Source of the DNA: a virus
Virus record (IMG/VR): IMGVR_UViG_3300030329_004796
Span: 1 to 32,104 of that record
DNA length: 32,104 bases
Direction: 5' to 3' (one strand)
The translations under genes were made by a program, and so were the position numbers. How positions within the stretch are numbered: the first letter of the stretch is position 1; every line of letters begins with the position of its first letter. The notes under the pieces were generated by a model that saw only the letters and a list, made by a program, of their open reading frames with translations, made no database searches and was not told the DNA's origin. Positions 1,826-32,104 of the stretch are shown piece after piece.

Positions 1826-1853
1826 TATACATTTGCCCTTGCTTTTGTGTATA
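1826..1853 (+). promoter_or_regulatory. Shared promoter/operator element (copy 1)
   Basis: TATACA, 16 bases, then TGTATA forms an inverted repeat, running on into TATATT. The ATG of the next gene lies 16 bases beyond TATATT, and the bases before it (CCAGTATG) resemble those at the other four copies. The same architecture occurs on the minus strand before the genes starting at 19157, 23729, 25088 and 25675. TATATT is a plausible -10 box. The core here is CCTTGC rather than ACTTGA, the weakest of the five. No Shine-Dalgarno fits between the inferred start of the transcript and the ATG. Confidence 0.6.
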
Positions 1854-1871
1854 TTGTGATAGAGTACCAGT

Positions 1872-11491: not shown

Positions 11492-14400
11492 TGGCTCTAC
11501 CAACAGTAAAGGTTGCGATTTCCAATGGACACTTTCAGGAATCATTACAGAATTGGGGAGATAGGGGGACTTGGACAACAGTTGGCTCTTATTCAGCTCC
11601 ATCTACTGTCTTAACTGATGCTAATGCGAATTGGGTTGTAGATGAGTGGATTGGATACTATGTTGTTGTTGATACCAATGAATCAGACCCAACAGTAGCA
11701 GTAATCACAGACAACACAGTAAACACTTTAACAGTAACAGGAAATCATTCAGGGCTTACGGCAGGTACAGACACCTATCGCATAGCTGGTGGTGTTGTTG
11801 GAACAGCCACAGCAAGTAATAGCACAACAGTAACAATAGGCTCTATAAAGAATAAATACGGAACAACAGTTGTTCCAGAAATAAATGAATTCGTGAATAT
11901 GAAAATAGTTCCTGACAAACTTGATGGCACAGCCTACACAATAACAGCAAACAATGCCACGACTGTTACCATAGGAACAGCCATTACTGTTTCATCTACG
12001 AGCTTTGAGATAGGTAGGGGAGCATCAGCGAGTGTCTATCCTGAAGCTATAAACATATCAGCAGAGCTTAATGAGCCAAAACAGCTTGAAGCAGCAGTCA
12101 TCTATGATGTTGTTGGAACAAACAAGTTTGAACAGGAAAAAGACATTGACAACTCATTGATGTTGGGTTCTTTGGTAAGGGTTACAGAAACGACTGGAAA
12201 CAAGATTCTCTTTAAGGGTCATATCCAGACAGCTCCGACATCAATCAATAGCGAATTAAGGTCAGTTCAATTCACGGCTTATGACAAATTGGCTATATTG
12301 GACTATACAGTCATTCCAGCAACAAAAATAGCAACTGATGGAAGTTTGCCCACATTCGGCTTCACTTCATCAACACCATTAATTGAATCTGGAGCATCTG
12401 GACACGGAAGCGACAATAAGATTTACCAGACAAAAGGATTTGAGGATTACACTTTTGCTCCACAGCCTTTGGGTTATGCTGGAGCAGTAAATTCAAATGG
12501 AACTTATGCGACAAGAACATCAGGTGGTTCAACATCAGGAACGACATTAGAGCCTAGTTCTGGAACACCTTTCCTTACAGACCTTATAAAGGTTGGAGCT
12601 GTTGTGATTAACACAACAACAAAAGAGGTTACACATATTAAATCTGTTACAGACAGCAATACGATAGTTACAACAGATTCAATATGGACATCTGGAGATG
12701 AATATGTCATACTTTCAAAGAACTGGCAAGTTGGAGAGGGTATTCAATCAGATGCCGATTACAGCACAAATGCTGGGTGGCAAATGAATATCGTAACTAG
12801 GGAACTTTTGGCAGCTCCAGCAGATGATGAGGAAGCAGCAGATGCTTCAACAAGAATCTATGTTGGTAGGGGTGGTTCTGTATCAACAGCAGATGTTGGA
12901 ATTCCATTTACTGGAAGGGCTTGGGCTTTGCTTATACATAATGACTATATTGAATTCGTTCATTACAACGGATACCTTTATGATTCAGATAAAGGCAAAT
13001 ACTATCTCAATGCCTACAACACAACACCACAGACAGACAGGAACACAAGAGGTGATTTGACAAATGCTTGGTCTACAACATCATCAAGCTATGTTGGTAG
13101 GGAATGGGCAAGTGGCTCATATCTGATTGAGGTATTTCCAAACAGGTTTGGTGGAGATGCTCCAAAGGTTTACTCTGAAGCTGGAAACAACCCAGTAGAG
13201 GAAATAGGTGTTGTGGCAGCAGAGGGTGTAATAAAGATGAGTGAGGGAGATGCCAAATGGGATGGACAAACAGCCCTTTATTGTCATCAATTCTCTTATG
13301 ATGGGGATGCCAGTTCAGCTTCTCCAGACAAAGGAACAACAAATAATGCTCTTGACATCTCTGATGCTGTCAGAACGGCTGTTACAGGGCTTACAGACAC
13401 ATCAGCATCAAACGAGGACATTATATCCAAATCAAAAATGACTGGTGGAGCTGGGCTTATTTTTGACACAACAAACAGTTTGGAAACTGGAATAAAGATA
13501 AATAATCTTGAATACAAGGCTTTTGGAAATAGCTCAACCCCCATACAGCCAAAACTTCTCATAGACAAACTTTGTGAAGATTCTGGATTGCTTTTTGATT
13601 TAAGGTTTGATGACAATAATGACAAAGTCATCTTCAAGCCATTAAGTCAAAAGGCACTTGCTTCAGCAGATGTAACATTGGCAGCTGGTTCTGTAACATC
13701 CCTTACAAGAGAAAGAGATGTTTCAGATGTCTATTCAGCTATGCTTTTACAGGTTCAGACACCAGACCAAAATTACTTCTCAAGGGAGAACATTATCCAG
13801 TATGGATGTAATTTTTCAACAGCTGGAGTTCCAACATCAACAGCAGCCCAAACTGGCTTCACAAAAGGCTCTTACTCTAGTGGTTCATCAATTCCAGACT
13901 ATTTTTGGGATACGACACATTTGAGGGGAATGGGAAAAGATGTTAAGAATTGGAATTCATCAACATCTCCAAACATAACATCTCCAATCATTCATACATC
14001 AATCTGGAAAAAGGCAAGTTGGAAAACAACTGGAAGAAATCCAAATCAAAACAATAGGAACGATACTGGATTTTTTGGAATACCAAGCTTGAGTGATGAT
14101 GGCAATGAAACACCTTTACACCTAGTTACATTCTGGTTCAGGAATGGAATCACATTAGATATAGAAAAATTCAGGTTTGGAACAGCTTATGCTGGAGATT
14201 CTGGAGCAAACGGATGTACTTATAGGGTTGAGGTTTCTACCGACATAGACATAACAGACCCATTAGCATCAGACACAACTTGGCAGAGGTTCAATGACAA
14301 CTCTTTGTCTTTAACAGCCAGTTCAAAAGGCAGGGTTGGTGGCAGACATTTTGAGTTGAGCAATTGCCAAGCTAAAGATGTAAAAGGAATGAGGATAGTT

Positions 14401-15246
14401 GCCTTAGCTTCCCCTTTTGCCCAGAATGGTTATTGGGGAGAGGGTACGGAGAAATTAAGGCAGACAAATGCTGATTATGGATACAAGACTTATGGATATG
14501 GTTCAACTTGCGAAACATTTTCACAAGCTGATTCTCCAAGAGATTATGCTTCCAGAGAAGCAAGATGGAATGTAAACAGGCAAGATTCTTGGGGTTTTGA
14601 TATTGACCCAGCAGATGCCACACAGGAAAATGGTGGAATGAATCATTGGTGGAAAACAGGAACACCTTATGCCACATCAGCTTTCGTAAATGCGATAGAA
14701 GCTTCATTATGTTCTCATAGTGGAACAGCAACCCCCACAAACTCATCAGACAGGCACGCAGGTTATATCCAACTTGGAAATTTCCTTTATGACCTTGAGG
14801 TTAGGGGAGTTGGAAAGAAAGCCCTGTTTGTAAGGGTTACAAAAGACCAAACGACAAAGGATGATGTTGAGAGAAAGGCTTTTTCCCCAAGTTACAAGAA
14901 ACTTGCTTCAATGGGATATAAGACAAACCCTATTCCTTTGGAGAATTTTTCATTTAGTGAAGCACAGGGTTTGGGTCAGCAATTCCTTGATGACAAATTG
15001 AGAAGATTTCAAGCAAGGGATTATTCATTGGATGGATTATCTCCATTCGTGAATTCAAACAACTTGCCAGTTCTTGGACAGACCATTGCCATAGCTGATG
15101 ACACACAAGGCACACCAAGTGCCGTTTCCTATTCAGGAATAATGACACAATACGAGTTCACAATGGATGCCAACGGAACAAGATTTGATTTTAGATTAGA
15201 GGATTATGACACTTTCAACACAGCAAGTTATATCCAAGCGAGTTAA
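11491..15246 (+). CDS. Large tail-tip / tail hub protein
   Basis: The 1251-residue protein is the largest product. Near the N-terminus lies a module (ANWVVDEWIGYYV then ITDNTVNTLTVTG) common in phage tail and fibre proteins; a related one occurs around residues 350-410 (VGAVVINTTTKEVTHIKSV). Residues about 190-265 (ISAELNEPKQLEAAVIYDVV, LFKGHIQTAP) and the C-terminal part (LGQTIAIADD, FRLEDYD) resemble tail hub domains of the Tal/gp27 kind. It would cap the tail tube and carry the fibres. I see no lysozyme or peptidase motif. It is coupled to the upstream gene by overlap and precedes the fibre gene by two bases. Confidence 0.7.
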   Translation: MALPTVKVAISNGHFQESLQNWGDRGTWTTVGSYSAPSTVLTDANANWVVDEWIGYYVVVDTNESDPTVAVITDNTVNTLTVTGNHSGLTAGTDTYRIAGGVVGTATASNSTTVTIGSIKNKYGTTVVPEINEFVNMKIVPDKLDGTAYTITANNATTVTIGTAITVSSTSFEIGRGASASVYPEAINISAELNEPKQLEAAVIYDVVGTNKFEQEKDIDNSLMLGSLVRVTETTGNKILFKGHIQTAPTSINSELRSVQFTAYDKLAILDYTVIPATKIATDGSLPTFGFTSSTPLIESGASGHGSDNKIYQTKGFEDYTFAPQPLGYAGAVNSNGTYATRTSGGSTSGTTLEPSSGTPFLTDLIKVGAVVINTTTKEVTHIKSVTDSNTIVTTDSIWTSGDEYVILSKNWQVGEGIQSDADYSTNAGWQMNIVTRELLAAPADDEEAADASTRIYVGRGGSVSTADVGIPFTGRAWALLIHNDYIEFVHYNGYLYDSDKGKYYLNAYNTTPQTDRNTRGDLTNAWSTTSSSYVGREWASGSYLIEVFPNRFGGDAPKVYSEAGNNPVEEIGVVAAEGVIKMSEGDAKWDGQTALYCHQFSYDGDASSASPDKGTTNNALDISDAVRTAVTGLTDTSASNEDIISKSKMTGGAGLIFDTTNSLETGIKINNLEYKAFGNSSTPIQPKLLIDKLCEDSGLLFDLRFDDNNDKVIFKPLSQKALASADVTLAAGSVTSLTRERDVSDVYSAMLLQVQTPDQNYFSRENIIQYGCNFSTAGVPTSTAAQTGFTKGSYSSGSSIPDYFWDTTHLRGMGKDVKNWNSSTSPNITSPIIHTSIWKKASWKTTGRNPNQNNRNDTGFFGIPSLSDDGNETPLHLVTFWFRNGITLDIEKFRFGTAYAGDSGANGCTYRVEVSTDIDITDPLASDTTWQRFNDNSLSLTASSKGRVGGRHFELSNCQAKDVKGMRIVALASPFAQNGYWGEGTEKLRQTNADYGYKTYGYGSTCETFSQADSPRDYASREARWNVNRQDSWGFDIDPADATQENGGMNHWWKTGTPYATSAFVNAIEASLCSHSGTATPTNSSDRHAGYIQLGNFLYDLEVRGVGKKALFVRVTKDQTTKDDVERKAFSPSYKKLASMGYKTNPIPLENFSFSEAQGLGQQFLDDKLRRFQARDYSLDGLSPFVNSNNLPVLGQTIAIADDTQGTPSAVSYSGIMTQYEFTMDANGTRFDFRLEDYDTFNTASYIQAS

Positions 15247-15248
15247 TT

Positions 15249-16253
15249 ATGAGTATATTTGACAGAAAGAAACCATTAAAGACAATCAAGAAATATATAG
15301 GTAGGTTCTTTCATAAGAAAGATTCACAAAGGCTTGATTTCATTGATACGACAAGACAGCCACAAGTTATATCAACACCATCAACAACACCTACTGGAGA
15401 TGGTTGGGATGACAGCAATAATTCTGATGCTAACCTTTCTGAATCAGAGGTTGATTTCGTTATTTCAGATGCTGATGGCGACACGATAGTCAATACAGAA
15501 GAATCAGCAGATGAGGACAAGATAAGGTTTGATACTGGTGGCTCTGAAAGATTCCGAATGGAAGCGAATGACACCAATGGTGGAGCTTTGTACCTCAAAG
15601 AGGGTTCTGGCACGACAGCACCAAGCACACCAGCATCTGGAGAGGGTGTCATCTACGAGAAGAATGATGGAAAGCTCTATTTCAAGAATGATGCTGGAAC
15701 TGAAACAGATTTGACATCTGGTGGTGGTGGTGGTGGTGGAGCACCCACAGATGCCCAATATGTTACTTTGGCTACTGATGGGGATTTGTCAGCAGAAAGG
15801 GTATTGACAGCTGGTGATAGGGTTACATTGACTGATGGTGGTGCTAACTCAACAATAACAGTAGCAGCATCACAGCAAAGGGTCATAGTTTCACACACTT
15901 GGGCTTTGGGTGGTCAGGTTCAGGTTGCTAGTGGCGATACGGATTTCATTATCCCAATGACAGTCAGGGATAGGTACACAAGCTCTGGATACAACACGAC
16001 AGTCAAGGTTGTGTCTGTAATATATTCAATCAATTCAGGAACAAATGTAACTTGGAAATTACAGAAGAATGGTTCTGACTTGAGTGGTTATGGAACATCA
16101 GGTTCTCCATTGACAGCAACAGCCACACCAGCAACGACAGAAAGCACACAAACACTTGCTGACAAGGATGAGTTAGCACCTGTAGTGGTGGCAATATCAG
16201 GAACTCCGAGAAATATGTCTATAACAGTATTCTTGGAGATTACGGCAGCCTAA
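15249..16253 (+). CDS. Tail fibre protein, 334 residues
   Basis: The basic N-terminus (DRKKPLKTIKKYIGRFF) would dock to the tail tip. Residues about 90-155 carry phage fibre repeats (IRFDTGGSERFRM, GALYLKEGS, GKLYFKNDAGTE). Eight consecutive glycines at about residues 158-165 form a hinge encoded by repeated GGT. The remaining C-terminal beta-rich domain (about 170 residues) ends in STQTLADKDELAPVVVAISG and is probably the trimeric tip or a receptor-contacting domain. It is coupled to the next fibre gene by TAATG. Confidence 0.75.
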   Translation: MSIFDRKKPLKTIKKYIGRFFHKKDSQRLDFIDTTRQPQVISTPSTTPTGDGWDDSNNSDANLSESEVDFVISDADGDTIVNTEESADEDKIRFDTGGSERFRMEANDTNGGALYLKEGSGTTAPSTPASGEGVIYEKNDGKLYFKNDAGTETDLTSGGGGGGGAPTDAQYVTLATDGDLSAERVLTAGDRVTLTDGGANSTITVAASQQRVIVSHTWALGGQVQVASGDTDFIIPMTVRDRYTSSGYNTTVKVVSVIYSINSGTNVTWKLQKNGSDLSGYGTSGSPLTATATPATTESTQTLADKDELAPVVVAISGTPRNMSITVFLEITAA

Positions 16254-18389: not shown

Positions 18390-18605
18390 ATGGAAAGGAT
18401 ACTCCACAAGGCAAAAGGCAGAAAAAGAAAAGATGTTCGTTTAAAGCCTATAAAAAGCGATATGGAGCTGGATGATGTCTTAAAAGCATACCAATCATTG
18501 ACAAAGAAAGAGCTTGTAAAGATAATTCTGGAAAAGAATGAGCTTCTTTGCCAATATGTAAACTGGATTGAGGAACTGAAAAACGGCAAAAAAAAAGAGG
18601 GGTGA
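18390..18605 (+). CDS. Small coiled-coil protein, 71 residues
   Basis: Starts on the base after the phosphoesterase stop. A basic N-terminus (KAKGRKRKDVR) is followed by two helices with heptad-like spacing (LDDVLKAYQSLTKKELVKII, LLCQYVNWIEELKNG). No family recognised. Last gene of the rightward late run; its final codons form part of the terminator of the convergent gene at 18645-19157. Confidence 0.6.
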   Translation: MERILHKAKGRKRKDVRLKPIKSDMELDDVLKAYQSLTKKELVKIILEKNELLCQYVNWIEELKNGKKKEG

Positions 18606-18618
18606 AATTAATCACCCC
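18588..18618 (-). terminator. Intrinsic terminator for the minus-strand gene at 18645
   Basis: On the minus strand GGGGTGA pairs with TCACCCC (18599-18605 with 18612-18618) around a six-base loop, followed by nine T (the A run at 18588-18596). It lies between convergent genes and overlaps the end of the + gene. Confidence 0.85.
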
Positions 18619-18644
18619 CCAAAAGGTTGATTCTTTTTTAGTGT

Positions 18645-19157
18645 CTATCGTGCTTTCAAGTAATCATTAGTTAATGAATCTTTAAATCCGATTGCCTTTC
18701 CAAAACATCCCATTAAAGTTGCGATAACCCTTGAATACTCAGTATGCCAACAAAAGTCATTAAGATTTTCGTTCAAGTGTTTGGCAATATTGATTCCATT
18801 CCTTTTTCGGTCATCACTAAAAGTATCGGTTGTGTGTCCAAAGAAATCGTGTGAACAAACTAAATCTTGAGCAATAATCCTCAATGAATCATCAATAAGC
18901 TTATAGTTGCCGAAATATGTTTTGTTGGTTTTTACAACACCATTCTCTTTAATCATTAACATATCAAATCCATTCTCATCTTTGTCTAACCATATTTGAA
19001 TGTTATTACCCCACTCTTTTTTATGATTTGACTTAATCTCCAAAAGAAAATTCCCATTTGTACAAGGAAATGGTTCAACATTTGCCCTAACAAATCCCAA
19101 TATTAAATTTTTAACCTCTGCTCTTAAGCAGTCAGTTCTATGTTTTTTTGTTTCCAT
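18645..19157 (-). CDS. Hypothetical single-gene cassette protein, 170 residues
   Basis: The start at 19157 (METKKH) is chosen over an upstream ATG because the shared promoter element lies immediately before it and the N-terminus matches the other METKK/MKTNK genes. The protein is soluble with mixed helices and strands (EIKSNHKKEWGNNIQIWLDK; SHDFFGHTTDTFSDDRKRNG). No family is recognised. It has its own promoter element and its own terminator and lies between the late genes and the early operon, so it is moron-like. Confidence 0.7.
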   Translation of the reverse strand: METKKHRTDCLRAEVKNLILGFVRANVEPFPCTNGNFLLEIKSNHKKEWGNNIQIWLDKDENGFDMLMIKENGVVKTNKTYFGNYKLIDDSLRIIAQDLVCSHDFFGHTTDTFSDDRKRNGINIAKHLNENLNDFCWHTEYSRVIATLMGCFGKAIGFKDSLTNDYLKAR

Positions 19158-19178
19158 ACTTGTTAATCTATACGATAA

Positions 19179-19206
19179 TATACAAAAAGTCAAGTAGAAA
19201 TGTATA
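19179..19206 (-). promoter_or_regulatory. Shared promoter/operator element (copy 2)
   Basis: On the minus strand: TATACA, 16 bases including ACTTGAC, then TGTATATT; ATG follows 19 bases later. The bases further upstream (CATTTCGTGGGTATTTATA) match those before copy 1 and at the window's right end, so these three form a subgroup. Confidence 0.65.
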
Positions 19207-19256
19207 TAAATACCCACGAAATGTGAATAATTGCGAATTTAAGGCATTTTTTAGGC

Positions 19257-19290
19257 AAAAAAAAAAGAGGGCTGGTGTTACCCAACCCTC
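19257..19290 (-). terminator. Terminator of the early minus-strand operon
   Basis: On the minus strand GAGGG pairs with CCCTC (19267-19271 with 19286-19290), extended by three pairs past one mismatch, and is followed by ten T (19257-19266). It ends the operon that runs leftward from 23729. Confidence 0.85.
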
Positions 19291-19343
19291 AACCCAATAA
19301 CTCTTTCGCCCTCACATTGGAGCTTTTGAGTTCTTATATTCTA

Positions 19344-19589
19344 CTACTCAAACTTGAAATCAAACAACTGTTTGGGGTATAAACTTGTGGCATCACAAAG
19401 CTTTACCCTGTTTTCCTTTCTTACAGTTCTCCCCTTGAGCCAGTATTTGATTGTTCTGGAGCTTATGCCCATATTGTCAGCAAGTGTGTCTATCGTGCTG
19501 TCATTGGAGTTTAACCACCTTTTCAGGACATCCTCTTTCAAAGTTGCCTTTGTCTTATATGTCTTTCTTACATATCTGGCATATTTCAT
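19344..19589 (-). CDS. Helix-turn-helix regulator, 81 residues
   Basis: Start taken at 19589, giving an ATGA overlap with the upstream gene, rather than five codons earlier. Residues about 31-60 (STIDTLADNMGISSRTIKYWLKG) form a clear helix-turn-helix of the phage Cro/XRE kind, preceded by a basic helical segment. As the last gene of the early operon it could be an autoregulator or a late activator. The target could be the TATACA/TGTATA dyad, which is speculation. Confidence 0.75.
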   Translation of the reverse strand: MKYARYVRKTYKTKATLKEDVLKRWLNSNDSTIDTLADNMGISSRTIKYWLKGRTVRKENRVKLCDATSLYPKQLFDFKFE

Positions 19590-19942
19590 AGGTAATCTTC
19601 CCATAAGTCAATCTTCTTGCCTTTGCTTGACAGCAACCTCACATTGCCATTGTCATCAGCAATCTCATAAGGTATGTCAAGAACTACAAATTCCTCATTG
19701 ACCCTATCCCAAACCCAGCCATCAGCTATCTTGTTCCATATTGCCTTTCTATCTCTCAATTCAGGCAATCTCTCCCATTGGGCATTACATCTTCTTCTGT
19801 AAGTCAAATCCAGCTTTGTCTTGTAGTGCCTTACCTTTGGTGGGCAAATCGTATATCTGAAACTATCCCCAAGATTCAAACTTGGAGCAATGTCATACAT
19901 ACCCACCTTTTGTGAATCTTTCCAATCCCATCTATTGCTCAT
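19586..19942 (-). CDS. Hypothetical early protein, 118 residues
   Basis: The ATG at 19942 follows GGGGG by six bases. The product contains WDWKDSQKVGMYD, a basic centre (YRRRCNAQWERLPELRDRKAIWNKI) and an acidic end. No family recognised. It overlaps its upstream neighbour by 11 bases and its downstream neighbour by four. Confidence 0.7.
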   Translation of the reverse strand: MSNRWDWKDSQKVGMYDIAPSLNLGDSFRYTICPPKVRHYKTKLDLTYRRRCNAQWERLPELRDRKAIWNKIADGWVWDRVNEEFVVLDIPYEIADDNGNVRLLSSKGKKIDLWEDYL

Positions 19943-20201
19943 CAAAAACCCCCTTTAGCTTTTCATAGTTCTCATACATAGCAATCTCAAGCACCTTTGT
20001 TGGGGTGTGCCTTGTCTTTGTGTATTCCTCAAAGTCTTTCTTGAGTACCAAGACAGACACATCCCCAGATAGCTTGACAGCATTTTTCAATACCTTTTTG
20101 CCATACCAATACTCAAATTGAGTTTTGGTTACCTTTGCCAAATGAAATTCATTCAGCTCTGGCATTGTGTAAATTATCCCTGATGAATCTTTGGTATCCA
20201 T
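19932..20201 (-). CDS. Hypothetical early protein, 89 residues
   Basis: ATG at 20201 is preferred; a TTG one codon earlier is possible. Soluble, with a beta-like N-terminal part (GIIYTMPELNEFHLAKVT) and a helical C-terminus (VLEIAMYENYEKLKGVF). The gene overlaps the 59-residue gene by about 53 bases, longer than usual in this operon. Function unknown. Confidence 0.6.
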   Translation of the reverse strand: MDTKDSSGIIYTMPELNEFHLAKVTKTQFEYWYGKKVLKNAVKLSGDVSVLVLKKDFEEYTKTRHTPTKVLEIAMYENYEKLKGVFDEQ

Positions 20202-20328
20202 CAATTATCCTATCCTTGTCATCAACAGCTTTCTTCAACCTTGATATTTCCATATCCTTTTCGGTATGCCTTAACTTGCTTGATTCCAGCTGAAACTTCA
20301 GCGACTTGATTTGTTCCTCGTTAGTCAT
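20149..20328 (-). CDS. Small coiled-coil protein, 59 residues
   Basis: The start overlaps the preceding stop by eight bases and the frame stays open to 20149. The sequence is almost wholly helical with heptad-like spacing (LKFQLESSKLRHTEKDMEIS, then RLKKAVDDKDRIIDG), so a coiled-coil dimer is likely. It reads into the next gene in another frame. No family is recognised; it fills what would otherwise be a gap between the two neighbours. Confidence 0.55.
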   Translation of the reverse strand: MTNEEQIKSLKFQLESSKLRHTEKDMEISRLKKAVDDKDRIIDGYQRFIRDNLHNARAE

Positions 20329-20662
20329 CTTCCAATGTGTGCTTGATTATGACCAAGCCCTCATCTTCAATCATATCAACCATTGAGATACAGTCTTTCA
20401 GCTTCCAATCCAACTCAAAGATTATCAAGTTCTTTTCGTGGATTGCCCTATTCAGGTCAAAGTTCTCAAGCTGTTCTTTCTCATAGGCTTCAACAACAAA
20501 TCCGACATTCTTGTCATATCCCTTGTAAAAGGAATACTGGTAGATGTTGCCACCCAGCGAAACCATCAGCAGTATCCAAATATGGATTGTGCCGTAGACA
20601 CTTAACCATTCCATAAAGTCATCTGAAAACCAATCTATGATTCTGTAAAACCAATTTTTCAA
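20321..20662 (-). CDS. Membrane protein with cytoplasmic helical tail, 113 residues
   Basis: Begins with TTG at 20662 (TTGA overlap with the upstream stop, GGGGG eight bases before). A hydrophobic segment at about residues 25-43 (IHIWILLMVSLGGNIYQYSF) predicts one membrane span; the rest is a charged helix (EAYEKEQLENFDLNRAIHEK). An early, membrane-anchored protein of this kind could act in superinfection exclusion, but there is no direct evidence. Confidence 0.65.
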   Translation of the reverse strand: MKNWFYRIIDWFSDDFMEWLSVYGTIHIWILLMVSLGGNIYQYSFYKGYDKNVGFVVEAYEKEQLENFDLNRAIHEKNLIIFELDWKLKDCISMVDMIEDEGLVIIKHTLEDD

Positions 20663-20928
20663 TATCTTGACCCCCTATGCTTTTTCATATAGTTATATAG
20701 TTTATCCACTTCCTTGTATCTTTGCGATTTTTCCTGATTGATGTCCTCGTAGTGCCACAAGACCTCACAAAGCAATCCCTTGTACTCTTTCTCATCAGGC
20801 TTTGTCTGAATCAAATCTTCCTTGTGGGAACTCCACCCAAGTTCCCTATAACAAGTCAGCAAGAGCAATCTTGCCTTTTCCACCACTCCCTTATGGGAAT
20901 GACCCCAACCCCAATGTGTGTTAATCAT
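20659..20928 (-). CDS. Hypothetical early protein, 89 residues
   Basis: The ATG at 20928 makes an ATGA overlap with the annealing protein gene; a TTG three codons earlier is the alternative. The N-terminus is striking: HWGWGHSHKG, several His and Trp residues close together that could bind a metal. The remainder is helical and charged, ending KLYNYMKKHRGSRY. No family is recognised. Confidence 0.65.
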   Translation of the reverse strand: MINTHWGWGHSHKGVVEKARLLLLTCYRELGWSSHKEDLIQTKPDEKEYKGLLCEVLWHYEDINQEKSQRYKEVDKLYNYMKKHRGSRY

Positions 20929-21968
20929 TTCAGGCAATTAATCATCATTGAAGCTTCTTTTGTATCACAAGCTTTAAGTGTCTTTTGGAATTGGTGTAAT
21001 ATCCAAGCACCCAATCTCTGTTCAGAGATGCCTTTTTTCTTTGCCAGACCCATAATCCAGTCAATCTGTTTCTGTGATATTTGTTTTGGTGTGTATTTGA
21101 ACTCAATATCCCTATCAAGCTCTGGGAAATCAGGGAACTTTTCTTCAGTATCAACTGGTGGCAAATCTCCCTCTGTGACTACTCCCTCTATTCCTGATGT
21201 GGCAATAAGGTTGTCAATGTCAATTTCCTCACTTCCACCAACATCTTCTGGAATGTCAGGCAAGGCTTCAAGCTTCTTTGGGTTGAAATGGTTGTGTATC
21301 TTTAGCCATTGCTCCCACTTTTGCTCATATCTCTTATGACCCAAAGTGCCTAAACACTTTTCCATATTTGAGAATACAGCCTTTGGAAATTTCATCCTTG
21401 AATCATTGGCATCAATGTCAGGATTTAATTCAACCATCATTTTTTCATACTCGGCTTTGGTTTCCTTGACATACCCAAAAAGCTCTTGCTTCTCTCTGTC
21501 CTCTCCACTCATACCCTCTGGTTTCTTTTGAATTTCCTGAACTTGCTTCTTGATTGATTTCGTTTCAGCCTTTTTAGGTTCAGCCTTTGGTGCTGTGGTT
21601 TCTTCAGAGACAATCCTTTCCTGAATGATTCTCTCTTGGGCAATCATCATTTCTTCTTGTGAAGCTCTCCCTTTGCCCTTAAAACCTATCACTAGGCTCA
21701 AGGCACGACCAGTTGCTGATGTGGAACTTGTTTCAGCCCAATTTGTGGCTTCAGCTCCCCTTGACTTAGATTGCCAATCCATAGCAATATCAACCCCAGC
21801 TGGAATTGAATCTTTTATATCCTTATAGACAGAGCATTTGACAAGAACCCTTTTGCCATCAGCAGATATGTCTATAACCTCATTAACGATAGCTCCGTTT
21901 GGATAGGTCTTGTGAAACCTCACAATCCTATCCTGAACCATCTCATAATCATTTACATTGAACCTCAT
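20925..21968 (-). CDS. Probable single-strand annealing protein (Rad52/Erf-like superfamily)
   Basis: GGGGG lies eight bases before ATG. Residues about 10-105 contain RIVRFHKTYPNGAIVNEV, a strand-rich middle and AETSSTSATGRALSLVIGF, the pattern of phage annealing/recombination proteins with an ETSAxGRAL core. A low-complexity Lys/Glu/Pro linker follows (about 115-160). The C-terminal segment ISQKQIDWIMGLAKKKGIS is a helical module often found at the end of such proteins. It would pair homologous single strands during replication or recombination. It is the only DNA-metabolism enzyme recognised here; no exonuclease or SSB is seen next to it. The family call is from pattern memory. Confidence 0.6.
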   Translation of the reverse strand: MRFNVNDYEMVQDRIVRFHKTYPNGAIVNEVIDISADGKRVLVKCSVYKDIKDSIPAGVDIAMDWQSKSRGAEATNWAETSSTSATGRALSLVIGFKGKGRASQEEMMIAQERIIQERIVSEETTAPKAEPKKAETKSIKKQVQEIQKKPEGMSGEDREKQELFGYVKETKAEYEKMMVELNPDIDANDSRMKFPKAVFSNMEKCLGTLGHKRYEQKWEQWLKIHNHFNPKKLEALPDIPEDVGGSEEIDIDNLIATSGIEGVVTEGDLPPVDTEEKFPDFPELDRDIEFKYTPKQISQKQIDWIMGLAKKKGISEQRLGAWILHQFQKTLKACDTKEASMMINCLK

Positions 21969-22258
21969 TGTATTGACCCCCTTATGTGTGTGAACAGTTT
22001 CTTATAGGGTGTTCTACCCTTTTGCGACACTCCAGTTCTGTTGAACAGAATATCCTCTGAAATACTTGTCAGGAACGACAATCGTTTCCTGACTTCCAAA
22101 GATGGAGATATACCCTTTCTGTATTGGTAATAAGCACATCTTGTCAGTTCAGCTATCTTACAGAACTCCGATATGGACATCTTTCTCTCCAATCTCCAAT
22201 CATCCAGCAAAGCTGTGTTTACTGAACACCTTGTAACCCTTTCTTGTGGCATAGTCAT
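21965..22258 (-). CDS. XRE-type helix-turn-helix regulator, 97 residues
   Basis: Residues about 17-60 (LLDDWRLERKMSISEFCKIA, LTRCAYYQYRKG) match the five-helix XRE/Cro fold with recognition helix near LTRCAYYQY. ATGA overlaps at both ends tie it to the operon, and GGGGG lies nine bases before the start. Likely a transcriptional repressor or activator of the early/late switch. Confidence 0.75.
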   Translation of the reverse strand: MTMPQERVTRCSVNTALLDDWRLERKMSISEFCKIAELTRCAYYQYRKGISPSLEVRKRLSFLTSISEDILFNRTGVSQKGRTPYKKLFTHIRGSIQ

Positions 22259-22629
22259 AAATCATAACCCCCTTGTATTTCGCCATACGAATACCCAAAG
22301 TATGCTTCTTGTGCTTCTGGATGCCTTAAAACGGCTTCTAGGGTTGATGCCTGAGCATCATCCAGCTCGTAGTAATGTTCCTGAAACTTAACCCTTTGTG
22401 TTGTTATGTTCCATCCATCAGCTCTCATCTCGTGAATACGGCTTGGGTATCTGAACCCAATCTTATTCAAATCCAAAGACAATACTTTACCATTCCCATT
22501 AGCCCTTATGAATAAGAGCTTCATCAGAATCTTACCTTTTTGAGTACCTCTCTTATATACTCTCGGAAGCCTTGTCAGCTTCTGTTCCAAGTCTTTGGGC
22601 AACTTGGATGCCCATTTGTTGTTAGTCAT
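22255..22629 (-). CDS. Winged-helix-like DNA-binding protein, 124 residues
   Basis: The segment RYPSRIHEMRADGWNITTQR fits the end of a small helix-turn-helix domain found in phage proteins (rIhdLRxxGw-I pattern). Basic N-terminus, helical C-terminus with several Gln/Glu/Ala. GGGGG lies six bases before ATG. Probably a regulator or replication-associated DNA-binding protein. Confidence 0.6.
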   Translation of the reverse strand: MTNNKWASKLPKDLEQKLTRLPRVYKRGTQKGKILMKLLFIRANGNGKVLSLDLNKIGFRYPSRIHEMRADGWNITTQRVKFQEHYYELDDAQASTLEAVLRHPEAQEAYFGYSYGEIQGGYDL

Positions 22630-22688
22630 ATCTAACCCCCATTTAAATTTATTTGGGTTGTTTAAGGCACAACCCTAAGCCTTGAAAT

Positions 22689-23036
22689 TTAAAGATTTTT
22701 TTCATTTTCCAATCTTCCAGAATCGTTCATAGACACCCACCATTGAAGCAAGGAAATGGGAATATTCCAATCTATGGAATATCTTCTGTTGATAAGTTGA
22801 TTTTTCTCTTTTTCCAGAATAAATTCTTCAGCCCAATCCAACAGCCTGACTTTGTGTGGCATTGACAGATTCACAAAAGATTTTTTACAATTGACAACAA
22901 ATTCAACTTCCTCTTGTATCTTCTCTGTATTGTACCAAGCACAATGTTTTGTACAATCACCCAAGTCTATTGAAATCCATTCCAAATGTTTGCTTTTTAT
23001 TTGAGCAATAAGCTCATTCAATGTTTTTACTTTCAT
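22689..23036 (-). CDS. Hypothetical early protein, 115 residues
   Basis: The gene has GGGGG seven bases before ATG. The product is soluble, with four cysteine/histidine positions clustered in DCTKHCAWYN and a later single Cys; it is otherwise helical with WAEEFILEKEKNQL. No family is recognised. Between this gene and the next lies a seven-pair hairpin (22655-22661 with 22669-22675) without a T run. Confidence 0.65.
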   Translation of the reverse strand: MKVKTLNELIAQIKSKHLEWISIDLGDCTKHCAWYNTEKIQEEVEFVVNCKKSFVNLSMPHKVRLLDWAEEFILEKEKNQLINRRYSIDWNIPISLLQWWVSMNDSGRLENEKNL

Positions 23037-23049
23037 TATTTAACCCCCT

Positions 23050-23328
23050 TTAAAAGTGATTTGGTGTGAATACTGGAATATTGGAAATACATAAAGCAAA
23101 AGCTTCTTTCCTTTCTTCCGACCATTCTTCCATTCTTCCTTTCTTGTTCAGGATGGCATTAGCCATTCCTACCCAATATGTAACCCAACTCAAATCGTTC
23201 TTGTAGTTGGACTTCACATTACCCAATGGATGCTCTAAAGAGAAGCCCTCACAATCAGCTTCGTTGTGGTGCTGAACACCCTCAAGGATTGCTTCATCTG
23301 TCTTGTATGCTACCTCGTAAGCTTCCAT
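23050..23328 (-). CDS. Hypothetical early protein, 92 residues
   Basis: The start overlaps the stop of the first operon gene (TAATG). It has an acidic N-terminus with HHNEADCEGF, then LSWVTYWVGMANAILNKKG and a helical end. The H/E/D/C cluster might bind a metal, but no motif is diagnostic. Unlike its neighbours it lacks a GGGGG, having GGGATGG about eight bases upstream. Confidence 0.65.
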   Translation of the reverse strand: MEAYEVAYKTDEAILEGVQHHNEADCEGFSLEHPLGNVKSNYKNDLSWVTYWVGMANAILNKKGRMEEWSEERKEAFALCISNIPVFTPNHF

Positions 23329-23729
23329 TATTTAATCCATCCCTTACAGCCAAAGTAACAATGATTCTCAAAGTAATTATCTATGTCTTTTATAGAATCG
23401 CCTTGAATAAGTCCTAAATTTTTCTTTTTTTCAACAAAGTGGTCATAACCACTCTCAAATCCTTTCCCTCTAGCCAAAGCATTACAGTTGTAAGCAATTC
23501 TTCTTTGTAATACTTTAGAAGTAAAGTCAGGAATCTGTGTAAAGTAAATATCAAAGAAATCTTTTACGATAGCTCTTTGTATTATCCTTGCTTCCCTTTT
23601 AGAATGAGTACCCTCAATCTTCTTGTAAAGCTCTCCAGTTCTTTCAGCTTCTTTATATATCCAAACCATAAAGGTTTCCACTTTATTCTCTTGCTTCCTT
23701 GTTAGGTCAGCATAATTAATTGTTTCCAT
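23328..23729 (-). CDS. First gene of the early operon, 133 residues, unknown
   Basis: The start at 23729 (METINY) is chosen over a start seven codons upstream, which would lie inside the promoter region. It shares the TATGGAAAC context with the genes at 19157 and 25675. The protein is helical, with basic patches (KKIEGTHSKREARIIQRAIV) and paired cysteines at the end (NHCYFGCKG). Function unknown. As the first gene of the operon it is likely expressed early and could be a host-takeover factor. Confidence 0.7.
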   Translation of the reverse strand: METINYADLTRKQENKVETFMVWIYKEAERTGELYKKIEGTHSKREARIIQRAIVKDFFDIYFTQIPDFTSKVLQRRIAYNCNALARGKGFESGYDHFVEKKKNLGLIQGDSIKDIDNYFENHCYFGCKGWIK

Positions 23730-23750
23730 ACTTGATACCCTAATACACAA

Positions 23751-23778
23751 TATACATACTTGTCAAGTGTTTTGTATA
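23751..23778 (-). promoter_or_regulatory. Shared promoter/operator element (copy 3), early operon promoter
   Basis: On the minus strand: TATACA, 16 bases containing ACTTGACA, then TGTATATT; ATG is 19 bases beyond. It should drive the 12-gene leftward operon 23729-19344, the longest unit under this element. Confidence 0.65.
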
Positions 23779-23881
23779 GTGAATTGGTACTTTCTGGTGC
23801 TTTTATATACACTAACAGGGTAAACAGATACCTTTTCTTTGTTCAGGTTATAATGAAAGAGCTGTAATTTCCAAGCTGAAT

Positions 23882-23963
23882 GGGGTACAGTATCGGCATC
23901 CCCTTGCCGATTCCTAATTGTTTTCATCCGTAGGGCAACGGCTTCAGCAGCCCAACTATCCCC
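23882..23963. ncRNA. Candidate structured RNA or folded control region
   Basis: Several perfect short stems lie together: ATCGGCA with TGCCGAT (23892-23898 with 23905-23911, loop TCCCCT), CCGT with ACGG (23928-23931 with 23938-23941, loop AGGGCA) and GGCT with AGCC (23940-23943 with 23949-23952). The loop AGGG can pair with CCCT of the first loop. The ends GGGGTACAGT and CTATCCCC could close the whole. A 70-codon minus-strand frame crosses it (23763-23975) but has no ribosome site. No known RNA family is recognised, and the strand is uncertain. Confidence 0.3.
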
Positions 23964-23975
23964 AAAGTGATACAT

Positions 23976-24488
23976 AGGACTTGAAAAGTGAACAATTATT
24001 CGTTAATATTGTCTTGCTTATTGTCTTGTCTTATTGATTCAATAATTAAATATCCATTTAATCATCTCATCAAACGACTTCGGGATTGAATACTAAGGGT
24101 AGGGTGTAATCAAGGATAGATTCCTCCATTTAATAGTACACAAATAAGTTATTCATAATATACATATATTTTTTAATATAAAAATATAGTTTCTATCAAT
24201 ACATTCCTACCCAAAAGGGTATGACCCACCTCTGTAAAAACATATCCAAAAGAGATAGTGAATAGGGGTTGGGTGGTTGAACCAGATGCTCCCCCAAAAG
24301 ACCCCTTTATGCTATTGTGAACATCATTCTTACCTGTTATCAGGGGTAGGATAGTTCCGATAATATGAATTATGTTACATAAATGGGTAGGGGAGGGGGG
24401 TAAAAGTTTCCTAAAAAGATTCAAAATGTGAAGTAAAGACCCAAACTAATTTGGATGGGTTTCAAATCCATCATTTAATATAAAGCCT
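23976..24488. other. Non-coding divergent region, candidate origin or control region
   Basis: About 510 bases without a credible gene, between the leftward early operon and a rightward gene. It holds the heptamer GGGTAGG three times on the + strand (24097, 24344, 24385) and once on the minus strand (24206-24212), two ATTGTCTTG repeats (24008 and 24020), and an AT-rich stretch at about 24120-24200. G-rich tracts and inverted repeats lie near 24260-24310. Repeats, an AT-rich block and divergent transcription are the usual signs of a phage replication origin or regulatory hub. No protein binding to it can be named. Confidence 0.4.
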
Positions 24489-24725
24489 ATGGAATACGAC
24501 AAGGATGAGAATGCCCATAGGTTCATAGCAATCTGTAATATGCTTGAATTGAAGCCCAAACGAATCAATACGAAGCTTCTGAGCTGTTGGGAAACAAGGA
24601 TAACAGTAAGGAAACAGCCGTTGATACGGAGATTGAAGCGACAGCTGGATAGGGATGGTGTTGACTATGGTGTCGTTCCTATAGGAAAGAACACAAGGTA
24701 CTACGGCTTTAGGGTAAGGGCATAA
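24489..24725 (+). CDS. Small basic protein, 78 residues
   Basis: Starts MEYDKDENAHRF and is strongly basic in the middle (ITVRKQPLIRRLKRQLDRDG), with a short strand-rich end (YGVVPIGKNTRYYGFRVRA) suggesting a small DNA-binding fold. No clear Shine-Dalgarno; the leader contains competing hairpins (24442-24474). It faces away from the early operon across the non-coding region. No family recognised. Confidence 0.6.
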   Translation: MEYDKDENAHRFIAICNMLELKPKRINTKLLSCWETRITVRKQPLIRRLKRQLDRDGVDYGVVPIGKNTRYYGFRVRA

Positions 24726-24754
24726 AAAAAAAGGGGGAGTGTTGCCACCCCCCC
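24724..24754 (-). terminator. Intrinsic terminator for the gene at 24777
   Basis: On the minus strand five G-C pairs and three further pairs past one mismatch (24733-24741 with 24746-24754) are followed by nine T (24724-24732). The A run also supplies the stop codon region of the convergent + gene. Confidence 0.85.
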
Positions 24755-24776
24755 AAAGGTCAGTTCTTGCTAGTCT

Positions 24777-25088
24777 TTAGCTTTTCAATCCTTTGCTCAT
24801 TACAACAGCAGCGATTTTTCTCAATGACCTTTCAGCATTTCCCAATTCTTCCCAAACATCAATACCCAAGTCGTTTTCATAAGCATCCTTACCATCTACA
24901 ACAGCACCATTCGGTAATGTCATCTTGTAAAGTTCAGCCAATTCAGCTTTTATGCTTCTGATTTTCCTAAGAGTCATTTCTTCATTAGCTTTTGCTTGTC
25001 CAAGCTGTGCTTTGTCAGCAGCTTTCTTACATCTTTCAATAAATCTTGCTTCTTCCTTTCGGTCAGAAGTCTTTTCATTAGTTTTCAT
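24777..25088 (-). CDS. Moron-like helical protein, 103 residues
   Basis: The N-terminus MKTNEKTSDRKEEAR resembles METKKKADRKEAL of the neighbouring cassette at 25253-25675, and the two genes share a 15-base identical string there, so the cassettes are related. The rest is a charged, mostly helical protein (AQLGQAKANEEMTLRKIRSI). It has its own promoter element and terminator. No family is recognised. Confidence 0.7.
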   Translation of the reverse strand: MKTNEKTSDRKEEARFIERCKKAADKAQLGQAKANEEMTLRKIRSIKAELAELYKMTLPNGAVVDGKDAYENDLGIDVWEELGNAERSLRKIAAVVMSKGLKS

Positions 25089-25106
25089 ACTCTTATCCTA
25101 TACTAA

Positions 25107-25135
25107 TATACAGAATATCAAGTGCTATATGTATA
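25107..25135 (-). promoter_or_regulatory. Shared promoter/operator element (copy 4)
   Basis: On the minus strand: TATACA, 17 bases containing ACTTGATA, then TGTATATT; ATG follows 16 bases later. The upstream flank (ATAAAAACCCCATATTCAAG) is nearly that of copy 5. Confidence 0.65.
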
Positions 25136-25203
25136 TAAAAGGCTTGAATATGGGGTTTTTATGCTGTTTTTCCAGAATTTGATTGATTTTTTTGGATTGT
25201 TAC

Positions 25204-25232
25204 AAAAAAAAAGGGGGGTTTTTACACCCCCC
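25204..25232 (-). terminator. Intrinsic terminator for the gene at 25253
   Basis: On the minus strand GGGGGGT pairs with ACCCCCC (25213-25219 with 25226-25232) around a six-base loop, followed by nine T (25204-25212). Confidence 0.9.
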
Positions 25233-25252
25233 AGTTTCAGGATTGATTCCTT

Positions 25253-25675
25253 TTAGCTCCAATGAGGTTTCCTTTCGCAATGTGTCTTTGGAAGCTTGTT
25301 CTTACATTCAGAGCCAAGTGCGAACCAGCCCATACTGATTCCACCATCATCTTCCATATTGTTGGCTTCAGGGTCATTCACATCAAAAACCCTACCACAA
25401 TTAGATTGTGCGAACCAGTATGCTTTGGCTGTTTGAACCCTTTTGCCACAGCAGTAACAAGTTTCAGCATCATTCCAGCAAGTGTCAAACATTCTGTTTC
25501 TGTGCTTTTCTGTCTGTTCAGGTAAATCAACCATCTTGAATACTGGAGTTTCCAACTTCTCAAGTTCTGATTTGATTTCATCTATTCTGATGTTTAGGTC
25601 AGATTTCACAAGCTCTAAGGCTTCCAATTTACTTTCTAGTGCTTCCTTTCGGTCAGCTTTTTTCTTTGTTTCCAT
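25253..25675 (-). CDS. Moron-like zinc-ribbon-type protein, 140 residues
   Basis: An N-terminal coiled coil (residues about 8-45, KLEALELVKSDLNIRIDEIK) is followed by a cysteine module: DTCWNDAETCYCCGKRV, then C in QSNCGRVFDV and C in ALGSECKNKL, the pattern of small phage zinc-ribbon proteins. Metal binding is inferred from spacing. It has its own promoter element and terminator. The related N-terminus of the 24777 gene suggests a duplicated cassette with exchanged C-terminus. Confidence 0.7.
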   Translation of the reverse strand: METKKKADRKEALESKLEALELVKSDLNIRIDEIKSELEKLETPVFKMVDLPEQTEKHRNRMFDTCWNDAETCYCCGKRVQTAKAYWFAQSNCGRVFDVNDPEANNMEDDGGISMGWFALGSECKNKLPKTHCERKPHWS

Positions 25676-25693
25676 ACTAGTAGTCTATCACAA

Positions 25694-25722
25694 TATACAC
25701 TTAGTCAAGTAATGATTGTATA
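25694..25722 (-). promoter_or_regulatory. Shared promoter/operator element (copy 5)
   Basis: On the minus strand: TATACA, 17 bases containing ACTTGACT, then TGTATATT; ATG 16 bases beyond. The most complete match to the consensus. Confidence 0.65.
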
Positions 25723-25808
25723 TAATCGCTTTGAATATAGGGTTTTATCCTGAAAAGTGTTGATTTTTATCAATTTTTTTTGATTTTCACTTAATATTAT
25801 GTTCAGTT

Positions 25809-29667: not shown

Positions 29668-31677
29668 GCCATAGAGAAAACCTATACAGTAAAAACCATT
29701 GAGAGAAAGATATACAAGCTTTCAATCAAGAATTTCAATTCATTCAAAAGACAGGTTATGAAAAACCTGAAGAAAGCAGACAAGACATTCAACAAGCATC
29801 TTAAGAAGCAGATGCCTTTGGCAGCCATTGATATTATTATGCCTGACATTGGAGATGTACAGCACAAATGGGAAAACACATTTGAACCTTTCTTTGAAGA
29901 AGAATATCAGGAAGTTGGAAACACGGCTTTGAGGAAATTGAGAAAGAGGACAAAGAAATACCAATACGAAACGAAAGAAGCTGAAGATATTTTCAATGTT
30001 GCCAATCCAATGACATCACAGACAATCAAGAATCAGGTCAATAAGATTGTTGGAGCATCCGATAGGGTATACAACAAGCTCAAGGATGAGATGATGGTTG
30101 ATTTGCTCAATGGAGAGAATATCCAGAAGCTTCAGGACACAGTAACGACTGTTATGAACAAGACACCAATGGAAGCAATGAGAATAGCAAGGACAGAGAG
30201 CAACAGGGTTGCCAATCTTGGAGCATTTCATTCCTACGAAACAGAGGACTTGGTTATGGGCTATGAATGGTTGGCAATCATTGATGACAACACAAGAGAT
30301 GCCCATAGGGAACTGAATGGGGAGAGGATAAAGAAAGGCGAAAGCTTTTCAAACGGAATGATATACCCTTTGGATGAAGCAGCTGGAGCATCAGAAGTTG
30401 TGAATTGTAGGTGTACAGCCTTGCCCTTGCTTGATGACAAGGAACTGGCAGAGGGTCTACCTGAAGAAGTTGTTGCTGTTGAAGCTCCACAGGTCAAGCC
30501 AACTGGAGCTGGAGCAAAGTGGAACACCACAAACAAGGAAGAAGCGAAGTGGCACAACAAGTCTGAATGGGGAAACAAGACACCAAGACAAAAGCAATTC
30601 AGGACAGCAATAAATAAAGCAGACCCATTATCAAAATTAACAAGGGATAATGGAAGCTTTTGCTATTACAACAATGGTGGAATAAATATGGATAAGACTT
30701 TTAAAATCGGAAAGCCAATGGCTTCATCAACTTGGCGACACGAATTTGGTCACTTTATTGATGATGATGAAAAGTTCACAGCCTTGTATGCCAAGAAATT
30801 GCTCAAGGAAATGGATGAGTTGCCTGATGATTTCGCAGCCAATTTCTTCAATCCTGAATCAATGGCAGCTGGACAGAAATATTCCATATCAAAGTCAAGG
30901 CAGATTTCCAAGTCAATGGGTTTGCCCTTGAAAGATGATTTGAAGTCATTGAGGTCAATAGACAAAAAGGCTGGAAAGGCAAACAAGTTCATCAAGGGAG
31001 ATGCCAAGTTTTATGGTAAGGAATCATACAAAACTTGGTTGAGCCAAGAGATAAATTTAAAAGAATTGAAAAAGATAGGTTTGGATGAGAATTTCAACCT
31101 GACTGTTTCAAAAGAAAAATTCAGAAAGAATATGATAAAGCTTTATGATGAAAACCCAACCTTTGTCAAGATTAAGGACTTGGAAGAAATAACTGGTGTT
31201 CCTTTGGATGCCATTGATTTCCTTGAGAATAAGGAAACAATCCAGAATCTTTTGTCAGCATCATCTGGAAACACCAATGAGCAACTTAATTTGATTTACA
31301 GAATTGTGGCAGATGGAGCTGGAGATTCTGTATATTTAGCTAATTATGATGCTTTGTCTGATTTCATTGGAGCATTGTCAAGAGAGCAGTTTGGTGGATG
31401 GGGCAGAAAATCCATAACCAATCTCATCAGGACATACGGACACGGAGCTAAATATTACACAGAGGGTACTAAAGTCATCTATGGTGTCAATGGTCATCAG
31501 ACAGCAGAGATGTTTGCCAATTATACGGATTTGGTTACATCAATGGGAGTGGATGAGGGGGTGGCTTGGCACAGGATGATGTCAAGGGTTGCTCCAAAAG
31601 CAACAAAACAAGCTGATGACATTATGGATTTCATTTCTGAAGTTGATACGGCTGGATGGAAAGAATTGGTAGAATAG
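29659..31677 (+). CDS. MuF-like minor head protein with HExxH metallopeptidase-like C-terminus (allele B, full length)
   Basis: Residues about 1-110 are helical and basic. Residues about 110-255 form the MuF head-morphogenesis domain: RIARTESNRVANLGAF, GYEWLAIIDDNTRDAH and NCRC at 249-252. A linker (LPEEVVAVEAPQVKP) leads to a domain with HEFGHFID, HExxH at residues 361-365. Towards the end, IGALSREQFGGWG and TAEMFANYTDL are shared with the other allele; the Glu there may be the third zinc ligand. MuF proteins are internal head proteins that may be injected with DNA. A zincin domain here could mature head or tail proteins or attack a host protein. The sequence between the motifs differs strongly from the copy at 2-1402. 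Confidence 0.88.
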   Translation: MGFAIEKTYTVKTIERKIYKLSIKNFNSFKRQVMKNLKKADKTFNKHLKKQMPLAAIDIIMPDIGDVQHKWENTFEPFFEEEYQEVGNTALRKLRKRTKKYQYETKEAEDIFNVANPMTSQTIKNQVNKIVGASDRVYNKLKDEMMVDLLNGENIQKLQDTVTTVMNKTPMEAMRIARTESNRVANLGAFHSYETEDLVMGYEWLAIIDDNTRDAHRELNGERIKKGESFSNGMIYPLDEAAGASEVVNCRCTALPLLDDKELAEGLPEEVVAVEAPQVKPTGAGAKWNTTNKEEAKWHNKSEWGNKTPRQKQFRTAINKADPLSKLTRDNGSFCYYNNGGINMDKTFKIGKPMASSTWRHEFGHFIDDDEKFTALYAKKLLKEMDELPDDFAANFFNPESMAAGQKYSISKSRQISKSMGLPLKDDLKSLRSIDKKAGKANKFIKGDAKFYGKESYKTWLSQEINLKELKKIGLDENFNLTVSKEKFRKNMIKLYDENPTFVKIKDLEEITGVPLDAIDFLENKETIQNLLSASSGNTNEQLNLIYRIVADGAGDSVYLANYDALSDFIGALSREQFGGWGRKSITNLIRTYGHGAKYYTEGTKVIYGVNGHQTAEMFANYTDLVTSMGVDEGVAWHRMMSRVAPKATKQADDIMDFISEVDTAGWKELVE

Positions 31678-32104
31678 GGAGAATACTATGAAAGAAAGAA
31701 AAATTATTGTGGATGATATTGAATACACAGTCACATTGTCAAAAGGAAATGTGTTGAGGATTAACGGAAGCATTTACAGGTCAAGCACTTTTGGAAACGA
31801 GATTGACAAGAAAGTCAATGAATACAATTTCCAATTTGCTCCAGATTTTATGGATGTTCCATTGAGAGCTGGGTTTGCTTATGGTGATGATATGAACCCA
31901 AAGATGAAGAAGATGTTTATAGAGCTTTTTACTATTGCTGTTGAAACGAATACGGCTTTAAGTGATATTTCCATTGATGAAATCTATGCTGATTTCATAG
32001 GAATAGACCCTCAAGATGGAAACAGTTAACCTGAAGAAGCAAAAAAAATAGCCTAAATTCCACAAAAATCCCAAAGAAACACCCATTTCGTAGGTATTTA
32101 TATA
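30348..32104 (+). repeat. Right copy of the diverged MuF-tail/partner module
   Basis: Partner of 1-1836. It continues through the small gene and into the following non-coding bases. The window ends at 32104 in GTAGGTATTTATATA, the start of a TATACA element equal to copy 1 (1826-1853). Nothing beyond is visible. If position 1 corresponds to 30348 in one circular genome, the unit is about 30.3 kb. Confidence 0.9.
31688..32029 (+). CDS. 113-residue partner of the MuF peptidase (allele B); possible immunity protein
   Basis: Starts MKERKIIVDD and is the counterpart of the product at 1420-1761, 74 of 113 residues identical by eye. Differences cluster at residues about 54-61 (FMDVPLRA against IIKINPMI) and in the last 20 residues, which would be candidate specificity surfaces if it binds the peptidase domain. 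It begins 11 bases after the MuF stop with AGGGAG upstream. No known family; immunity, chaperone or head-accessory roles remain open. Confidence 0.75.
   Translation: MKERKIIVDDIEYTVTLSKGNVLRINGSIYRSSTFGNEIDKKVNEYNFQFAPDFMDVPLRAGFAYGDDMNPKMKKMFIELFTIAVETNTALSDISIDEIYADFIGIDPQDGNS

Follow-up and report, generated by a model that had tools for sequence, protein, structure and literature searches.

An inverted-repeat element with predicted promoter boxes and a probable leaderless start precedes exchanged genes in two related phage genomes

What does a phage gain from placing the same short inverted repeat before the start codons of five of its genes, and which of the boxes in and around that repeat would serve as the promoter? 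The question is raised by the virus record IMGVR_UViG_3300030329_004796, which was analyzed over its whole length of 32,104 bases (the window). A search for TATACA-N14-19-TGTATA gave exactly five matches in the window, all with a spacing of N16 or N17, compared with a mean of 0.00 in 100 dinucleotide-preserving shuffles. The matches lie at 1826-1853 on the plus strand (locus I) and, on the minus strand, at 25694-25722 (locus II), 25107-25135 (locus III), 23751-23778 (locus IV) and 19179-19206 (locus V), where an earlier, sequence-only reading of this DNA had placed them. Other details of that reading were also recovered: a CTTGA core is present in four of the five copies (CTTGC at 1826), TATATT follows each dyad as part of TGTATATT (5/5), and the ATG lies 16-19 nt past TGTATATT, in the context AGTATG(A/G)AAAC at every locus. 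The reading had also asked for a motif search in related phages. One close relative was found, IMGVR_UViG_3300009370_000104 (designated G), whose TerL is 96% identical to that of the window, and it carries five exact dyads and a degenerate sixth at 19430, one arm of which is TGTCTA. In these two uncultured phages, the 11 copies (five in the window, six in G) keep 21 of 22 half-sites, and their surroundings differ. The repeats, their layout and the replacement of the genes behind them are certain as read from the two genomes; it is also fairly probable that each copy combines a sigma70-type promoter, a built-in operator and a leaderless start, and that the copies form a coordinately regulated set. 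This set would consist of single-gene units together with the head of the early operon.

The layout of the 11 copies is TATACA, 6-8 nt, TTGAC(T/A), TGTATATT, 4-7 nt, TAGRNT, a gap of 6 or 7 nt whose last base is T, and ATG. The TTGAC-like hexamer at the dyad centre would form the -35 box and TAGRNT the -10 box, with 15-18 bp between them (15, 17 or 18 bp in the individual copies). The -35 box deviates to TTGCTT in one orthologous pair and to TTGATA in one copy, the gap between the -10 box and the ATG is 6 or 7 nt, and T precedes the ATG in 11/11. Mean pairwise identity is 0.79 for the -35 box and 0.78 for the -10 box, against 0.40-0.50 for the gaps and for the 20 nt upstream. Identity of the half-sites approaches 1.0, a value that reflects their use as the selection criterion. 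Because selection on the half-sites is circular, a search blind to the dyad (TTG[A/C]-N17-20-TAG[A/G]NT-N6/7-ATG) was run on both genomes, and it recovered the identical 11 sites and no extra one. TAGRNT-N6/7 stands before only 0.6% of all ATGs of the window. Conservation extends into the genes, codons 1-3 (ATG(G/A)AAACA) being 0.90 identical among the copies and the next seven codons 0.45. The proposal of the sequence-only reading that promoter and operator are combined, with leaders too short to hold a Shine-Dalgarno sequence, is supported, and its choice of TATATT inside the dyad as the -10 box is probably wrong, the TTGAC/TAGRNT pair being better supported and placing the transcription start (+1) at or beside the A of the ATG.

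Since the -10 box ends 6-7 nt before the ATG, the predicted +1 falls on its A or one base before it. Pairing with the anti-Shine-Dalgarno sequence averages -1.7 kcal/mol at the 11 element-led starts, none of which is at or below -5 kcal/mol, compared with -6.2 kcal/mol at 25 internal starts, where 68% are at or below -5 (p = 6e-4); random window sequence averages -2.2 kcal/mol, like the element-led starts. These values support the earlier proposal of transcripts with no room for a Shine-Dalgarno sequence. Leaderless bacterial genes have a published signature, TANNNT about 10-12 bp ahead of the start codon (PMC3160421), and the element-led starts show both this box at that distance and no Shine-Dalgarno sequence, although the published genes are scattered host genes and the present ones follow a repeated phage element with an operator-like dyad. 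It is likely that the mRNA is leaderless and that transcription begins at the start codon, in which case the A-rich opening ATG(G/A)AAACA would serve translation without a Shine-Dalgarno sequence. The two phages show a clean split: genes at the head of an operon look leaderless, and most of those within operons use Shine-Dalgarno sequences. An archaeal TATA box was considered and rejected, as the centre of TGTATATT lies only about 20-24 nt before the ATG, internal genes have Shine-Dalgarno sequences and the intrinsic terminators are of bacterial type. By eye, the operon leader at 24489 (TAATAT-N7-ATG) also looks leaderless, as does that of the divergent late operon at 25770-25808 (gene at 25809, TATTAT-N8-ATG), which has no clear -35 box, as expected if late transcription needs an activator. 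One fragment of a further relative (L141) shows a late-operon arrangement similar to that of the window.

The dyad itself is most likely an operator. Its arms are 6 bp long, perfect and N16/17 apart, they bracket the -35 box with half-site centres separated by 22-23 bp (about two helical turns), and the identical dyad occurs at several predicted promoters of each phage. Perfect arms around a -35 box, so consistently kept, suggest that a protein competes here with RNA polymerase, and the simplest interpretation is repression through a single common regulator. Such a protein, which would bind as a dimer or cooperatively and is most likely a repressor, would switch all copies together. Candidate binders, all encoded on the minus strand, are a Cro/CI-type helix-turn-helix (HTH) protein at 19344-19604 (a Pfam HTH_26 match slightly over the curated threshold, with 90% identity to its counterpart in G), a weakly HTH_3-like protein at 21965-22258 and a weakly HTH_39-like (winged helix) protein at 22255-22629, to which the protein at 24489-24725 may perhaps be added. 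Searches of the PDB by sequence with two of the HTH proteins gave nothing useful. Alternatively, the dyad may be bound by an activator or by a host regulator of the stress or SOS type, and the regulon would then be turned on by the state of the host. We regard this as rather doubtful. In its favour, the dyad could not be tied to any phage protein, the phage HTH proteins match their families weakly, and the Adephagia study was equally unable to identify the protein that binds a similar repeat (PMC11373665); against it, arms that flank the -35 box favour steric repression. The full element pattern had no exact copy in 84,980 bacterial and archaeal genomes, a search that included the ATG context and that a bare host operator would escape.

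If a shared repressor is taken as the preferred reading of the dyad, the choice of promoter boxes has still to be weighed. TATACA could be the -35 box and TATATT the -10 box, with an 18-19 bp spacer, so that the dyad arms would themselves be promoter boxes and the leader would be about 9-12 nt. This pair scores 9/12 to the consensus and is present in 10/11 copies, which makes it a serious competitor, but it leaves the near-universal TTGAC and TAGRNT boxes and their fixed distance of 6-7 nt to the ATG without explanation, and it gives no reason for boxes that mirror each other. The degenerate copy of G is informative here: at 19430, where the element heads the early operon of G, the TGTATA arm has become TGTCTA and TATATT has become TCTATT, with loss of the essential A, and TTGACA and TAGGGT are intact. 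This assignment is judged unlikely. Several observations nevertheless count against the TTGAC/TAGRNT promoter with its operator. Six of the 11 spacers are 15 bp, which is short for sigma70, although four of these six copies have TGN ahead of the -10 box, which could compensate; TAGRNT matches the -10 consensus at only about 4/6 positions; and a plain consensus scan scores TATACA-N18/19-TATATT equally well. The 11 copies are related by descent and hence are not 11 independent observations of conservation. The dyad was not found in the fragments L140-L142 of further relatives (TerL about 62% identical), and the viral contigs and genomes scanned held no carriers beyond the window and G. No binding protein was identified, and none of the HTH candidates was tied to the dyad by sequence or structure analyses; the 124-aa HTH-like protein gave a poor structure prediction (predicted local distance difference test score, pLDDT, 42), and the 78-aa protein encoded at 24489 gave one of intermediate quality (68), for which no significant match was found.

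What follows the element differs between the two phages, a fact that the sequence-only reading could not reveal. When the window and G are compared at their five syntenic loci, identity is 78-100% in the element and 50-98% in the 60 nt upstream, and the 300 nt of gene after the element are 48-55% identical, compared with 50% for random pairs; by this comparison, the gene behind the conserved element is unrelated at all five. Locus I is the clearest case, with an element that is 100% identical and first ten codons that are 93% identical, followed by unrelated genes. Homologues are found elsewhere: family A is represented at locus IV of the window and at loci VI (E = 4e-59) and III (E = 1e-8) of G, family B at locus I of the window and locus II of G (E = 1e-29), and the locus II protein of the window has its match in G as the product of the second gene in the locus II unit (E = 1e-57). 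Homologues at different loci behind conserved elements mean either that the promoters hold their place and the genes change, or that the element travels with its gene. The gene would be replaced by recombination at or just past the start codon, or else would relocate together with its element. In G (L049), the second gene of the locus II unit (11532-11867) begins with MKTNKKTSDRKDEA and has no element before it; an opening of this kind without the element indicates that the shared first codons can travel apart from the promoter. The shared start region either drives the exchange or merely marks where mosaic joins survive, two genomes having been compared.

A bolder and rather less likely reading is that the element is a standing socket made up of promoter, operator, start codon and a few shared codons, and that recombination at the start codon swaps accessory genes in and out behind it. 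A newly acquired gene would then come at once under a common switch and a leaderless start. Phages gain and lose accessory genes constantly, and the step by which a new gene is brought under phage control is seldom visible; where control region and start codon are fixed and genes are replaced, regulation comes with the location. That the repeats are mainly recombination sites (homology blocks or of the Xer type) with an incidental regulatory look is very improbable: genes are swapped immediately after the element at 5/5 syntenic loci and, in G, an element has moved with its gene to a place between virion genes, but all copies have one orientation, one fixed distance to the start codon and -35/-10 boxes, the element stands upstream of the cassette with no counterpart at its far end, and 6-bp arms separated by 16-17 bp do not fit the 11-6-11 layout of Xer sites. 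An Xer/dif-type site, considered for the TGTATA core, was dropped on the same grounds, being one-sided, fixed to start codons and wrong in arm layout.

The individual loci are built as follows. At locus I (1826-1871, plus strand), TATACA occupies 1826-1831, the predicted -35 box TTGCTT 1839-1844, TGTATATT 1848-1855 and the predicted -10 box TAGAGT 1860-1865, and the ATG at 1872 opens a 145-aa accessory gene of family B (1872-2309, plus strand; G homologue at locus II), which lies within the virion region and after which no clear terminator was seen. The other loci are on the minus strand. At locus II (25676-25722), the same four parts occupy 25722-25717, 25708-25703 (TTGACT), 25699-25692 and 25687-25682 (TAGACT), and the ATG at 25675 opens a 140-aa accessory gene (25253-25675) followed by an intrinsic terminator at 25213-25232 (GGGGGGTGTAAAAACCCCCC TTTTTTTTT). 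Locus III (25089-25135) has TATACA at 25135-25130, TTGATA at 25121-25116, TGTATATT at 25112-25105, TAGGAT at 25100-25095 and an ATG at 25088, with a 103-aa accessory gene (24777-25088) and a terminator at 24733-24754. The element of locus IV (23730-23778), the predicted promoter of the early operon, has these parts at 23778-23773, 23766-23761 (TTGACA), 23756-23749 and 23742-23737 (TAGGGT); the ATG at 23729 opens the first early-operon gene (23328-23729, 133 aa, family A), whose close homologue in G stands with its own element between virion genes. The operon ends in an intrinsic terminator at 19267-19290, just upstream of the element of locus V (19158-19206), where TATACA is at 19206-19201, TTGACT at 19193-19188, TGTATATT at 19184-19177, TAGATT at 19170-19165 and the ATG at 19157, and where a 170-aa accessory gene (18645-19157) is followed by a terminator at 18597-18620. 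Loci II, III and V are thus single genes with strong intrinsic terminators, that is, element/gene/terminator units, and G has a further such unit, again element plus gene plus terminator, between two virion genes that are adjacent in the window (7374/7377). Defence-system profiles gave nothing significant on the accessory proteins.

Among known systems, the nearest parallel by features is provided by the extended start-associated sequences (ESAS) of cluster K mycobacteriophages; no sequence homology is claimed. Adephagia has seven intergenic ESAS copies of 46-47 bp, in which SigA-like boxes at a spacing of 17-18 bp are combined with an inverted repeat (PMC11373665) for which binding by a repressor of unknown identity has been proposed (PMC11373665; PMC3203893). 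As with ESAS, the present element is multicopy and intergenic, combines -35/-10 boxes with an inverted repeat before gene starts, and stands ahead of small genes of mostly unknown function. The ESAS arms are 15-17 bp and imperfect, whereas those of the window and G are 6 bp and perfect. ESAS are usually tied to a 13-bp start-associated sequence (SAS, GGGATAGGAGCCC) reaching beyond the ribosome-binding sequence, but GGGATAGGAGCCC is absent before all 11 start codons, where TAGRNT-N6/7 is found and no Shine-Dalgarno sequence; and cluster K gene families keep their ESAS, whereas genes of the window and G change behind a conserved element. As arm length and SAS, two defining features, differ, the element is not classed as an ESAS despite an apparently similar way of working; its departures are the probable leaderless start and the exchange of genes at the start codon.

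The units also resemble morons, accessory phage genes that carry a promoter and a terminator of their own: they are single genes with a predicted promoter and a terminator, they stand between conserved phage genes, and they differ between close relatives. Promoter-like boxes in a fixed layout precede each gene, an intrinsic terminator follows at loci II, III and V, and the gene is replaced at the same place in G at 5/5 loci, with the extra G unit between virion genes in addition. Unlike morons, they have a common promoter-operator-start block, one copy of which heads the early operon itself, and this suggests common control. The stoperators of cluster A mycobacteriophages are asymmetric, monomer-bound, numerous and act on elongation (PMC9283540). 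A single regulator acting at many sites across the phage genome is proposed in both cases, but the sites of the window and G are few, symmetric and found only at predicted promoters. The C1 operators of P1 are another dispersed set of repressor sites in a temperate phage. The element is a real and regular control element of ordinary purpose and unusual combination, and its dyad over the -35 box, TAGRNT and ATG at the predicted +1 provide a signature for finding accessory genes in this phage group.

The sequence-only reading had counted a sixth copy, cut off at 32104, and this count does not hold, since the contig end shows only TATATA. Bases 1-227 and 30348-30574 are 94% identical, bases 1419-1829 and 31687-32104 are 77% identical (about 420 bp), and the window terminates within this repeat, as assemblies tend to do. 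G carries the end-locus region once, and alignment to the window shows an overlap of about 77 bp between the two ends of G itself. By this comparison, the first 1.8 kb and the last 1.8 kb of the window represent two diverged forms of a single locus, which are either variants from different strains joined in one contig or a true tandem duplicate. With similar window ends and a single region in G, the partial copy is probably an allelic or redundant form of the 1826 locus and not an independent element. The locus encodes a Mu F-like head protein whose C-terminal regions are unrelated in the two versions (1-1829 and 30348-32104), and both of these regions have a HEFxH motif like that of a zinc peptidase.

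The relatives of TerL within genomes are at most about 36% identical and come from many phyla (many from Chloroflexi), and being so distant and so spread they name no host. Dozens of viral contigs that matched the pattern scans were, G excepted, rejected as chance matches, with unrelated sequence, context and G+C content, and Rfam and tRNA scans were empty. Fragment L140 begins (1-30) inside a TGTGTATATT stretch that contains TGTATATT, at the place corresponding to the 25694 element; this hints, and proves nothing more, that the repeat may be older than the pair formed by the window and G. The early operon block (19344-23863) is inverted in G relative to its flanks, with breakpoints near window positions 23862 and 19344 and no clear inverted repeat at the joints, and the early operon of G contains two DNA methyltransferase genes (phrog_116 and phrog_67; G 13249-15307, L049) that the window does not have. 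About 500 bp at 23976-24488 are noncoding and for the most part conserved in G, at about 81-91% identity. They include runs such as TACCCAAAAGGGTA, and ATGTATATTATGAATAA, near 24149-24165, is common to both phages; this stretch is possibly a replication origin or an attachment site.

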